Shown piece after piece: positions 24,034 to 38,529 of a stretch of 40,935 bases of DNA; position 1 is the first letter of the stretch; each line of letters opens with the position of its first letter. The notes beneath the pieces are model-generated. The model was not told the DNA's origin, did not search any database, and worked only from the letters and a program-made list of their open reading frames with translations. Both the position numbers and the translations under genes were made by a program. The stretch lies in the NCBI RefSeq assembly GCF_013044125.1, contig NZ_JABEVC010000051.1, positions 1-40,935 on the forward strand, written 5' to 3'. The stretch comes from Acidocella sp. Lineage in GTDB: Bacteria; Pseudomonadota; Alphaproteobacteria; Acetobacterales; Acetobacteraceae.

Positions 24034-24873
24034 TCAGGCCACCAGCGACATTTTCGCCGGCGGCAGCTTGATCGCGCTGATCAGCGAACGCACCTCATTA
24101 CGGGCGGCAATATGCGAAAGCCCCAGCGCGATGCCGATATTCGCCTCACGCACATCCATCAGGGTCAGCCCCTGCAGGTAGAGCTCGCGGAAAATCACCC
24201 GCTCGCCAAACCCTTTCAGCGTGCGAAAGCCGATCCGCTTGGCCAGCAGGTCCAGCGTCTCGCCCACATCGCGCTTGTTGCGCGCCTCAGAGGCGGCAAG
24301 CCGGTTGCGCATCACCATCCAGTCGATCTTGCCGCGATCACGCGAGAAGCGGTTCTTGCGCGCCTCCCACACCATTTCCGAGTAGATGCTAGGGTTCACG
24401 ATGTCGTGATTGTCCGGGTCCACCTTCGCCAGCATCGAAAAATCGACAAAACTGTCGTTGATCGGGGTGATCAGCGTGTCCGCGTGGCTATGCCCGTAGC
24501 GTGAGAGATATGTGTCGGCCCCCGGGCAGTCGATCACCACCACATCCATGCCCTCGAATTCGGCCAGCGCCGTATCGAAGCGCAAGCGTTCCTCCGCCTC
24601 CGCCTCTAGCCGGTTATCCAGGATCGCGCGATGCACGGAGCGAAACGCGGGCAAAGGCAGCACAATCCCCTTGCTCTCCACGAAATGTTTCCGGGCCGCC
24701 AGCGTGCCGGCCAGCGTACCCTGCCGCGCGTCAAGATCCATGGCGCCCACGCTGTAGCCATCGCGCAGCAGCGAGACGATGATATGGATGGAGGTAGTGG
24801 ATTTGCCCGAGCCGCCCTTCTCATTGCCCAGCACAATGACATAAGGACGCGATTGGGCAGACACGCTGGCCAT
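24034..24873 (-). CDS. mipZ: MipZ-type ParA-like ATPase (division plane positioning)
   Basis: YVIVLGNEKGGSGKSTTSIHIIVSLLRDGYSVGAMDLDARQGTLAGTLAARKHF, VVIDCPGADTYLSRYGHSHADTLITPINDSFVDFSMLAKVD, MVMRNRLAASEARNKRDVGETLDLLAKRIGFRTLKGFGERVIFRELYLQGLTLMD. Alternative upstream ATG at 24921. Confidence 0.92.
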   Translation of the reverse strand: MASVSAQSRPYVIVLGNEKGGSGKSTTSIHIIVSLLRDGYSVGAMDLDARQGTLAGTLAARKHFVESKGIVLPLPAFRSVHRAILDNRLEAEAEERLRFDTALAEFEGMDVVVIDCPGADTYLSRYGHSHADTLITPINDSFVDFSMLAKVDPDNHDIVNPSIYSEMVWEARKNRFSRDRGKIDWMVMRNRLAASEARNKRDVGETLDLLAKRIGFRTLKGFGERVIFRELYLQGLTLMDVREANIGIALGLSHIAARNEVRSLISAIKLPPAKMSLVA

Positions 24874-24885
24874 GGGTAACTCTCC

Positions 24886-24940
24886 GACTCGGGTTTCGAA
24901 TCCTCCTTTAACCGAGTCCATCGATTCTGCCCAAGGATTC
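24886..24940. promoter_or_regulatory. Cluster of five GANTC (CcrM methylation motif) sites upstream of mipZ
   Basis: GACTC 24886-24890, GAATC 24898-24902, GAGTC 24914-24918, GATTC 24923-24927, GATTC 24936-24940. Confidence 0.8.
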
Positions 24941-24997: not shown

Positions 24998-25603
24998 ATG
25001 AAGCCATACCGTATTCTGGGCGCATGCTCCGGCTGGTCCGCGCTGCTCACCCAATACTGTCTCACCACCGCGCACGCGGGCCTGCTCCCCGGCAGCATCA
25101 CCTATTTCGGCTTCTTCACCATCTGGGGCAACCTTCTCGTGGCCCTGGCCTTCACCGCGCCGCTGCTGCCAGCCGCCACCCGGCCCACGTTTTTCCTCCG
25201 CCCCGGCGTGCGCGCGGCCATCGGGGTCTATATCCTCGTCATCGCGGTGGTGTATTATTTTCTATTGCGAAAGCTCTACCACCTCACCGGGCTGGACTGG
25301 TACGTGAACCTCCAGCTGCACGACATCAACCCGCCGCTTTATGTGCTGGATTGGGCGTTCTTCGTGCCCAAAGGGCAGTTACGTTTCCGCCAGATACCCT
25401 ACTGGCTCATCTGCCCGCTGGTCTACGCGGGTTACGTCCTGCTGCACGGCGCGCTTAGCAGCTATTACCCTTACCCGTTCCTCAACGCGGCCACGCTGGG
25501 CTATCCTCGGGTCAGCCTGAACATCGCCGGTCTCGCCCTGCTGTTCGCGGGCACGGGCGCCGGCTTCATCGCTGCCGGGCGCTACCTGCCCAACCCCGCC
25601 TGA
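24998..25603 (+). CDS. Pr6Pr-like integral membrane protein
   Basis: YFGFFTIWGNLLVALAFTAPLL, NLQLHDINPPLYVLDWAFFVPKGQLRFRQIPYWLICPLVYAGYVLLHGALSSYYPYPFLNAATLGYPRV; preceded by aggaggtgggatgcc. Confidence 0.85.
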   Translation: MKPYRILGACSGWSALLTQYCLTTAHAGLLPGSITYFGFFTIWGNLLVALAFTAPLLPAATRPTFFLRPGVRAAIGVYILVIAVVYYFLLRKLYHLTGLDWYVNLQLHDINPPLYVLDWAFFVPKGQLRFRQIPYWLICPLVYAGYVLLHGALSSYYPYPFLNAATLGYPRVSLNIAGLALLFAGTGAGFIAAGRYLPNPA

Positions 25604-25606
25604 GGC

Positions 25607-27022
25607 TTATTTTCCGGTCAAAATCCGGTCCACCAGCTCGCGCACTGTCGGGATGAACCCGTTGGAATAGAACGGATCGCTGCCAAAACGGCAGGCATTA
25701 TGCCCGGCGAACATCAGATTATGGTCCAGCGCATCCAGATCATCCGGCGCGGCATGGGCAATATCCTGCAAGGTCTTCTGGATGCAGAAGCTGCGCGGAT
25801 CGGCCTTTTTGCCGTTGTCATATTCCGGCGGCTCCTGGCTCCAGTTGGAGAACCGGCATTGGCTCAGGCAGCCCATGCAGTTCACCTGGTCGGTATGGAT
25901 CTCCTCGGCCTTCGCCGGGGTCACGAAGATCAGCGTGGAATCCGGGGTGCGCAGTGCATCCACATAACCGGCCTCTTCCCAGTCCCTCACCCGCGCATAA
26001 TCCGGCGCGGTGAGGTACACGGAGCGCTTACGCGCACCCACGCCATATTCCACCACATGCTCGCCAACCGGCTCGGGCGAATACGCCACCTGCCGCTCGT
26101 TGCGCCCGCGCAGCTCCTGGATGAAGCTGTTGTTCACGGCGGATGAATAAAACCCCGTGGGGGAGAATTTGTTGAGGAACACATCGCCCGGCTTGAGCGT
26201 GCGCAGGCGCTCCTTCCAGCTCGCTGGAATCGGGCTTTCCCTGGTCAGCAGCGGGCGGCTGCCGAACTGAAAGGCAATCGGCCCCAACTCGGGATTATCG
26301 ATCCAGTCTTCCCATTCCTCCAGCGCCCACACGCCGCCGGCCATGATGATCGGGGTCTCCCCCAGGCCGAATTCGCGCATGATCTTGCGCAGCGCCAGCA
26401 CGCGCGGAAACGGCGCCTCGGGCTTGCCCGGGTCCTCGCTGTTGGAAAGCCCGTTATGCCCCCCGGCCAGCCATGGGTCCTCATACACCACCCCGCCGAG
26501 CAGATTCGCCGCCTTGGAATAGGCCCGCTTCCACAGTGCCGAGAACGCGCGCCCGGAAGACACGATGGGATAATAATGCACATTGAACTTGGAGGCGATC
26601 TCCGAGAGCCGGTAGGGCATCCCCGCACCGCAGGTGATGCCGTTCACCAGCCCCTTGGTGCGCTCCAGAACGCCGGTGATCACCCGCTCCGCACCGCCCA
26701 TCTCCCACAGGATATTGGCATGGATGCGCCCCTTGCCGCCGGAAATCTCATAAGCGCGCTCAGCCTGGGCAACGCCGCCCTCGATCGCGTAGGCAATCAG
26801 CTCCTCATGGCGGTCCCGCCGGGTCTTGCCATGATAAACCGGCGAGATCACGTGCCCCTCCGCGTCGTAATTATCAGGATTGACCGCCGAGAACGTCCCC
26901 GCCCCGCCGCCCGCGGCCCAATGGCCGGCGGTTACGCCGTTGGAAACAGCAACACCCTTGCCGCCCTCCACGAGGGGCAGAATTTCAGTTCCGCCCATGC
27001 GGATGGCATTGATAAGCTTCAT
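25607..27022 (-). CDS. NAD(P)H-dependent flavin oxidoreductase / nitronate monooxygenase-like protein with C-terminal Cys cluster
   Basis: GTEILPLVEGGKGVAVSNGVTAGHWAAGGGAGTFSAVNPD, GITCGAGMPYRL, IIMAGGVWALEEWEDW, IAFQFGSRPLLT; C-terminal VNCMGCLSQCRFSNW...SFCIQ...HNACRFG. Confidence 0.85.
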   Translation of the reverse strand: MKLINAIRMGGTEILPLVEGGKGVAVSNGVTAGHWAAGGGAGTFSAVNPDNYDAEGHVISPVYHGKTRRDRHEELIAYAIEGGVAQAERAYEISGGKGRIHANILWEMGGAERVITGVLERTKGLVNGITCGAGMPYRLSEIASKFNVHYYPIVSSGRAFSALWKRAYSKAANLLGGVVYEDPWLAGGHNGLSNSEDPGKPEAPFPRVLALRKIMREFGLGETPIIMAGGVWALEEWEDWIDNPELGPIAFQFGSRPLLTRESPIPASWKERLRTLKPGDVFLNKFSPTGFYSSAVNNSFIQELRGRNERQVAYSPEPVGEHVVEYGVGARKRSVYLTAPDYARVRDWEEAGYVDALRTPDSTLIFVTPAKAEEIHTDQVNCMGCLSQCRFSNWSQEPPEYDNGKKADPRSFCIQKTLQDIAHAAPDDLDALDHNLMFAGHNACRFGSDPFYSNGFIPTVRELVDRILTGK

Positions 27023-37449: not shown

Positions 37450-37899
37450 TCAGGCGGCGTCCTCGCGGCGGTCACGCACCCGCACATAGGCGACGGCGGC
37501 ATGCTCCTCGCAATAGGGTTTCCCCGTCACCGCGGACGCATTGCAAAAATGAAAACTCGGCTTTCCCGGCTCGCCGATCGGCCAGCAGCACGGCGTGGCG
37601 CGCTGGCTGAATTTCACAGCCGGCAACATCGCCCGCAGCGTTGGCATCGGCGCCGACATCGAAGCTGAAAGCGGCGGCAGCGTTGCCCCCTGCACCCGCT
37701 TGGGCACCACCGGACGCACGGCAGCCGTTTCACCCTCGTTGCGGCGAATTGGCGAGGGACGCGGCGGCAGATTAAGGCGATGCGCCTTCCCGACCACGGC
37801 ATTTTTTGAAATACTCAGCCTGCGGCCAATTTCCGCAGTCGAAAGCCCTTCGGCCCACAAGCTCCGCAATTTTGCAATTGCCTCTTCCGTCCACTCCAT
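37450..37899 (-). CDS. gcrA: GcrA family cell cycle regulator
   Basis: MEWTEEAIAKLRSLWAEGLSTAEIGRRLSISKNAVVGKAHRLNLPPRPSPI...CCWPIGEPGKPSFHFCNASAVTGKPYCEEHAAVAY. Confidence 0.96.
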   Translation of the reverse strand: MEWTEEAIAKLRSLWAEGLSTAEIGRRLSISKNAVVGKAHRLNLPPRPSPIRRNEGETAAVRPVVPKRVQGATLPPLSASMSAPMPTLRAMLPAVKFSQRATPCCWPIGEPGKPSFHFCNASAVTGKPYCEEHAAVAYVRVRDRREDAA

Positions 37900-38004
37900 A
37901 TTGTGGCCCCTCTCACTCAAACTACAAAATACAGTAGAGAGAGCGGGCCCCACTCGCAATATCTAGCGGGGTCTCCCCGAGTCCTTTTCTGTGGAAAACT
38001 ATTA

Positions 38005-38529
38005 TTACTTAACCGTCTCGCCCGGAAACGCGCCCCAGAAATCCTCGCGCGCCAGATAGCCGGTGTAGCGCCCGGCCGCCGCCTTGCAAAAATCCGAGCT
38101 CCGGTCACATGAAATCAAAGTACCGGTGACACCGCCCTGCAGATACGCCACGGGCGCGGCATCCGGGGCGGGGCTGCGCCGCAGCACCGCCTGCTGGGCG
38201 GTAATGAAAAACGTTCGCCGCGCGCGGATCGTCGCCATATGTACCCAGCCGGTGCCACCATCAGGCGCCACCACATGGCGCCATACGTCAAATTCGCCGA
38301 TGATCTCTACCGGCAGCCCGTCGCGCTCGTAAACCCAGTTCACAGGGTACTGAAACCCCGGCCCGGCCCGGAAATTCACCTCATTGGTGCGCAGCGAGAC
38401 AAAGCGCGGCACCGGCAGCTTCGTCACCTGCCCCACTGCCGGCCCCGGCCCGCTGCCCACGGGCGCCGCGGTCCACCCGCCAAGCAACAGCAGCGCGAGG
38501 GCAGCCCCCCTCAACCACATACGGGGCAT
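38005..38529 (-). CDS. SH3 domain-containing secreted protein
   Basis: Signal peptide; FVSLRTNEVNFRAGPGFQYPVNWVYERDGLPVEIIGEFDVWRHVVAPDGGTGWVHMATI and a second SH3-like repeat. Confidence 0.88.
   Translation of the reverse strand: MPRMWLRGAALALLLLGGWTAAPVGSGPGPAVGQVTKLPVPRFVSLRTNEVNFRAGPGFQYPVNWVYERDGLPVEIIGEFDVWRHVVAPDGGTGWVHMATIRARRTFFITAQQAVLRRSPAPDAAPVAYLQGGVTGTLISCDRSSDFCKAAAGRYTGYLAREDFWGAFPGETVK

Follow-up and report, generated by a model that had tools for sequence, protein, structure and literature searches.

Five GANTC sites lie between mipZ and a divergent gene

What do five GANTC sites packed into 55 bp do in an intergenic gap of Acidocella, and which of the two flanking genes do they serve? 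The window analyzed here, the whole 40,935-nucleotide stretch of contig NZ_JABEVC010000051.1, comes from an Acidocella MAG of 2.68 Mb. On its forward strand the sites read GACTC at 24886, GAATC at 24898, GAGTC at 24914 and GATTC at both 24923 and 24936, exactly as a preliminary description of this DNA had placed them, and they fill 55 bp of a 124-bp gap. On one side of the gap lies mipZ (24034-24873, minus strand, ATG at 24873), which encodes the division-site-placing ATPase (279 aa). Its product matches PF09140 (E=6e-99, 331 bits) over profile positions 1-261 of 262, a full-length P-loop ATPase match, and is 99% identical to MipZ of Acidocella sp. STC_51 and 97% identical to that of A. aquatica. 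On the other side, a divergent gene (24998-25603, plus strand) encodes a membrane protein of the Pr6Pr family (NF038065, E=9.9e-38). A 471-aa ORF at 25607-27022 (minus strand) is conserved beside mipZ across Acidocella at ~77-98% identity; it matched nothing in Pfam or NCBIfam and by eye looks like a nitronate monooxygenase relative.

The genome encodes CcrM, whose presence the preliminary description had left to be checked, and GcrA as well. The ccrM gene is on contig C166, and its 361-aa product combines an N6_N4_Mtase domain (PF01555, E=6.9e-66) with a RAMA domain (PF18755, E=2.7e-15). CcrM was also found in three of the five-site relatives described below, G002 (partial), G022 and G009; a search of G015, which is 92% complete, did not find it. 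GcrA, a σ70 cofactor that responds to GANTC methylation, is encoded in the window itself (37450-37899, minus strand; 149 aa; PF07750, E=7.8e-31) and matches Caulobacter GcrA in 7ye1, a solved GcrA complex, at E=1e-20. The distance from gcrA to mipZ is 12.6 kb here versus ~3-4.5 kb in most of the other Acidocella contigs compared.

The gcrA promoter has a single GANTC of its own (GACTC, 37979-37983, minus strand), 84 bp upstream of the ATG and kept in 9 of the 10 Acidocella gcrA upstream regions compared. This promoter (window 37900-38049; L055-L063 and L091) is strikingly conserved across Acidocella, as GTTTTCCACAGAAAAGGACTC, and presents a DnaA-box-like TTTTCCACAG, the one GANTC and then a -10-like TAGATA, at 17-18 bp from where the GANTC begins. 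The layout suggests activation by DnaA together with self-control of gcrA.

The cluster is rare in the genome

The preliminary description had put the chance expectation in 55 bp well below one. An order-2 Markov model fitted to the window generated 8 Mb of sequence without any cluster of five GANTC in 55 bp, and when the 124-bp gap itself was shuffled, five sites were reached in 3 of 50,000 shuffles. Across the window GANTC is depleted (89 observed versus 127 expected), a property already known for Alphaproteobacteria with CcrM (PMC3973325). Similar density at many other loci, which the preliminary description had named as damaging to its proposal, was not seen either: the genome-wide count gave one other cluster of five in 60 bp, at C185:3302-3358.

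We rejected this second cluster as a further cell-cycle promoter: with a resolvase gene as its neighbor and a sequence similar to a four-site stretch on contig C176, it is probably a mobile-element repeat. The stretches L133:2003-2059 (five GANTC) and L135:2025-2065 (four GANTC) are alike, both carry TTTGGAATCCC...GATTCCGA, and one of them adjoins a resolvase gene; they are probably a mobile-element repeat or a recombination site. Triple clusters number 50 in the genome, a count that overstates promoter clustering because many of them repeat one another almost exactly at the ends of contigs and are likely the termini of insertion sequences.

GANTC at mipZ is genus-wide and the five-site state is specific to one clade

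Close relatives keep the sites. Five species (G000; G002, Acidocella STC_51; G022; G009, A. aquatica; and G015) share all five with identical spacing, and the exact pattern occurs in 5 of the 38 genomes of the genus, once per genome and always at mipZ. These genomes form one shallow clade in the MipZ tree (97/96 support). In the five-species alignment of this shallow clade, every one of the 20 fixed columns of the GANTC sites is invariant, versus 33 of the 45 other columns (Fisher p=0.012). At site 4, G015 has GACTC where the others have GATTC; the free N base changed and the site was retained.

To survey the genus we compared 24 Acidocella regions, each taken as the 110 bp upstream of the conserved mipZ start (an upstream GTG would give 0 sites in the window). 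They contain 65 GANTC, a mean of 2.7 with a range of 1 to 5, and independent lineages of the genus also reach three or four sites. The regions upstream of 141 neighboring ORFs average 0.28 GANTC. At least one site in all 24 regions matches YGAKTCK, the extended consensus of GcrA (PMC7987155); in the window sites 2 and 5 match it. Sampled mipZ relatives beyond Acidocella have 0-3 GANTC in 150 bp. Since every Acidocella region has at least one GANTC and five occur in a single clade, GANTC at mipZ is a property of the genus and the number five a property of the clade. The alignment of upstream regions that had been proposed thus upholds conservation in the A. aquatica clade; it does not extend the five-site state to Acetobacteraceae, or even to Acidocella as a whole.

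These patterns bear on whether the extra sites do anything. One core site might work alone, the others being passive: GANTC would be tolerated or favored in the intergenic DNA of CcrM-bearing genomes, where it is over-represented (PMC3973325), and would be kept by descent in a young clade. Such passivity would sit well with the variation from one to five sites within the genus and with the restriction of the five-site state to one shallow clade. It is harder to reconcile with the invariance of every fixed column while surrounding columns vary, with the three or four sites reached in independent Acidocella lineages, and with the finding that none of ~140 unrelated neighboring ORF upstream regions has at least three. 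We judge passive extra sites less likely than not.

A predicted promoter places the sites around a weak -10

If the sites act on transcription of mipZ, they should fall at defined places in its promoter. A simple scan of the 124-bp gap for a consensus σ70 promoter and a terminator found nothing; the predicted -10 rests on alignment. In 11 of the 24 Acidocella mipZ regions the start of a GANTC precedes a TANNNT hexamer by exactly 17 bp, compared with a best count, over all distances, of at most 8 in 2000 shuffles; after thinning to 16 lineages, 10 cases of the arrangement remain. At the same position the five-site clade has TAAAGG, TAAAGA or TAAGGA, a weaker -10, and relatives in register have TAAACT, TATCCT or TACAAT. 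We rejected the 17-bp arrangement as a general mark of the GcrA regulon: G000 has 32 instances at 17 bp, 31 at 14 bp and 39 at 20 bp, which is no genome-wide excess over the other two spacings.

In the window this alignment predicts a weak -10 (TAAAGG) at 24905-24910 and, by position only, 17 bp further upstream, a -35 region (TGGGCA) at 24928-24933, all elements being read on the minus strand as mipZ is. In mRNA order, site 1 (GAATC, 24936-24940) would lie directly upstream of the predicted -35. Site 2 (GAATC, 24923-24927) is the one with the 17-bp spacing to the -10-like hexamer, which would put it at about -29, and site 3 (GACTC, 24914-24918) lies ~3 bp upstream of that hexamer; both fall between -35 and -10 if the aligned, weak -10 is right. 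Site 4 (GATTC, 24898-24902) would coincide with the transcription start. Site 5 (CGAGTCG in the sense strand, GANTC at 24886-24890) lies in the 5' UTR and adjoins the ribosome-binding site (GGAGAG, 24880-24885). A TTAA at 24908-24911 overlaps the predicted -10 and is a possible CtrA half-site; a TTAA half-site is likewise found at the -10 of Caulobacter mipZ P2 (PMC4287350).

The position of site 2 has a precedent in Caulobacter ctrA P1, a different gene with one site, where GANTC is at -29 (PMC4287350). At mipZ itself, a link to CcrM that had been called established in Caulobacter is confirmed by the literature: CcrM raises mipZ transcription through GANTC, a conserved CGACTC being needed for activity (PMC3708114), and GcrA binds the methylated promoter (PMC3667746). 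GcrA is described as a σ70 cofactor (Haakonsen et al. 2015, as cited in PMC7987155). We infer that the same pathway operates in Acidocella, with site 2 as the core.

The reading that we judge likely, with good confidence, is that the cluster forms the σ70 promoter and leader of mipZ, methylated by CcrM and read by GcrA, with extra sites added in one clade. Site 2 would be the core GcrA site, just below the -35 and 17 bp above the weak -10. GcrA bound to σ70 would engage this site when methylated and promote mipZ transcription, so that production of MipZ would be coupled to the locus being replicated and re-methylated. The A. aquatica clade would have gained and retained four more sites: one above the -35, a second one in the spacer, one at the start point and one in the leader, next to the ribosome-binding site. 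The likely effect of these extra sites would be to increase occupancy by GcrA or to make the promoter distinguish more sharply between full and hemi-methylation. A counterpoint to this core-site model comes from G010, G017 and G006, in which the leader site (CGAGTCGGAG, site 5) and not the spacer site is the sole promoter-proximal GANTC.

Position may also determine the sign of the effect. Caulobacter promoters that have a GANTC between -35 and -10 are activated and peak at 40-60 min, whereas those with GANTC outside these elements are at their lowest over the same interval (PMC4287350). Different GANTC sites of the Agrobacterium PE promoter act in opposite directions, and gcrA in that species is repressed by methylation (PMC11514494). 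By analogy, the spacer sites at Acidocella mipZ could activate through GcrA, the start-point and leader sites opposing them by repression or through a competing binder, so that the methylation pattern would produce a pulse. Conservation of the leader site alone in other Acidocella is consistent with such a two-mode switch, but those species presumably still express mipZ, and no mipZ promoter is known to show position-dependent repression. We think opposing modes rather unlikely. More doubtful is the further proposal that, in the A. aquatica clade, the five-site promoter counts or integrates methylation with position-dependent signs, the spacer activating and the start point and leader restraining, to give a sharp replication-coupled pulse of MipZ.

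The cluster very probably serves mipZ rather than its divergent neighbor

The preferred reading, a GcrA-read mipZ promoter, assigns the cluster to one of two divergent genes, and the preliminary description had allowed that it might serve the Pr6Pr gene too. Both genes share the 124-bp gap that holds the cluster, and it is only within the five-site clade that Pr6Pr adjoins mipZ. Yet in G022 an internal deletion has reduced Pr6Pr to a short remnant (MKPHPFLNAATQGYPR...) and all five GANTC are intact, which argues that the cluster serves mipZ. Acidocella lineages with three or four GANTC at mipZ have no Pr6Pr there, and the promoter register suits mipZ. The cluster thus belongs, on comparative grounds, to mipZ, and Pr6Pr is an unlikely reason for it; that it acts for Pr6Pr, or equally for both genes, we regard as very improbable.

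Equally remote is the idea that the GANTC match is incidental and that the repeats bind an unrelated regulator acting as a dimer, or fold into a hairpin in the mRNA: there is an inverted repeat between sites 3 and 5 (GACTCGGTT...AACCCGAGTC), and site 4 could pair with site 5, but any two GANTC are largely complementary, the predicted start is downstream of site 3, which is hence outside the mRNA (we rejected a hairpin of sites 3-5 for these two reasons), and spacing between sites varies by lineage while GANTC itself is kept.

A probable extreme variant of a known switch

How far does the Acidocella arrangement depart from known systems? The Caulobacter crescentus mipZ promoter is the closest, with the same gene, the same motif and both regulators. 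It has two juxtaposed sites; the window has five, with a 17-bp spacing to the predicted -10 and with additional sites at the predicted start point and in the leader. Elsewhere in Caulobacter, multiple GANTC within 50 bp occur at 11 of 96 cell-cycle start sites (PMC4287350). Agrobacterium tumefaciens has three GANTC in each of the repABC promoters PA and PE and six in the 250 bp upstream of gcrA (PMC11514494). These regions resemble Acidocella mipZ in carrying multiple GANTC, which in Agrobacterium differ individually in effect; they serve other genes, their density is below five in 55 bp, and gcrA is repressed by methylation. The view that five sites are unusual, most promoters carrying one or two, therefore holds against the two of Caulobacter mipZ and has to be tempered by the multi-GANTC precedents in Agrobacterium.

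That mipZ is a CcrM/GcrA target is already known; five sites within 55 bp whose layout is conserved are an extreme variant. The control of Caulobacter mipZ and the six-GANTC gcrA region of Agrobacterium make the Acidocella cluster a variant of a known switch, and its retention in related species marks it as a real, unusually dense version of the Caulobacter-type, methylation-dependent cell-cycle switch. In a search of one collection of open-access papers, Acidocella with CcrM returned only unrelated work on Acidithiobacillus, and MipZ with Acetobacteraceae returned nothing.

In Caulobacter, ftsZ and mipZ are under common CcrM control. Most of the Acidocella ftsZ upstream regions compared (L155-L161 and L164) have no GANTC within 120 bp; the exceptions include G007 and G012, with one or two. 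The lack of a nearby GANTC at ftsZ, unlike in Caulobacter, may reflect rewiring.

Natural variants with one to five sites at a single gene make it possible to test directly how the output of a cell-cycle promoter depends on how many methylation sites it has and where they lie, and cultured species are at hand with five sites (A. aquatica) and with three (A. aromatica). As judged from these genomes, Caulobacter-type control of mipZ by CcrM and GcrA very probably extends to Acidocella, a member of the Acetobacteraceae.
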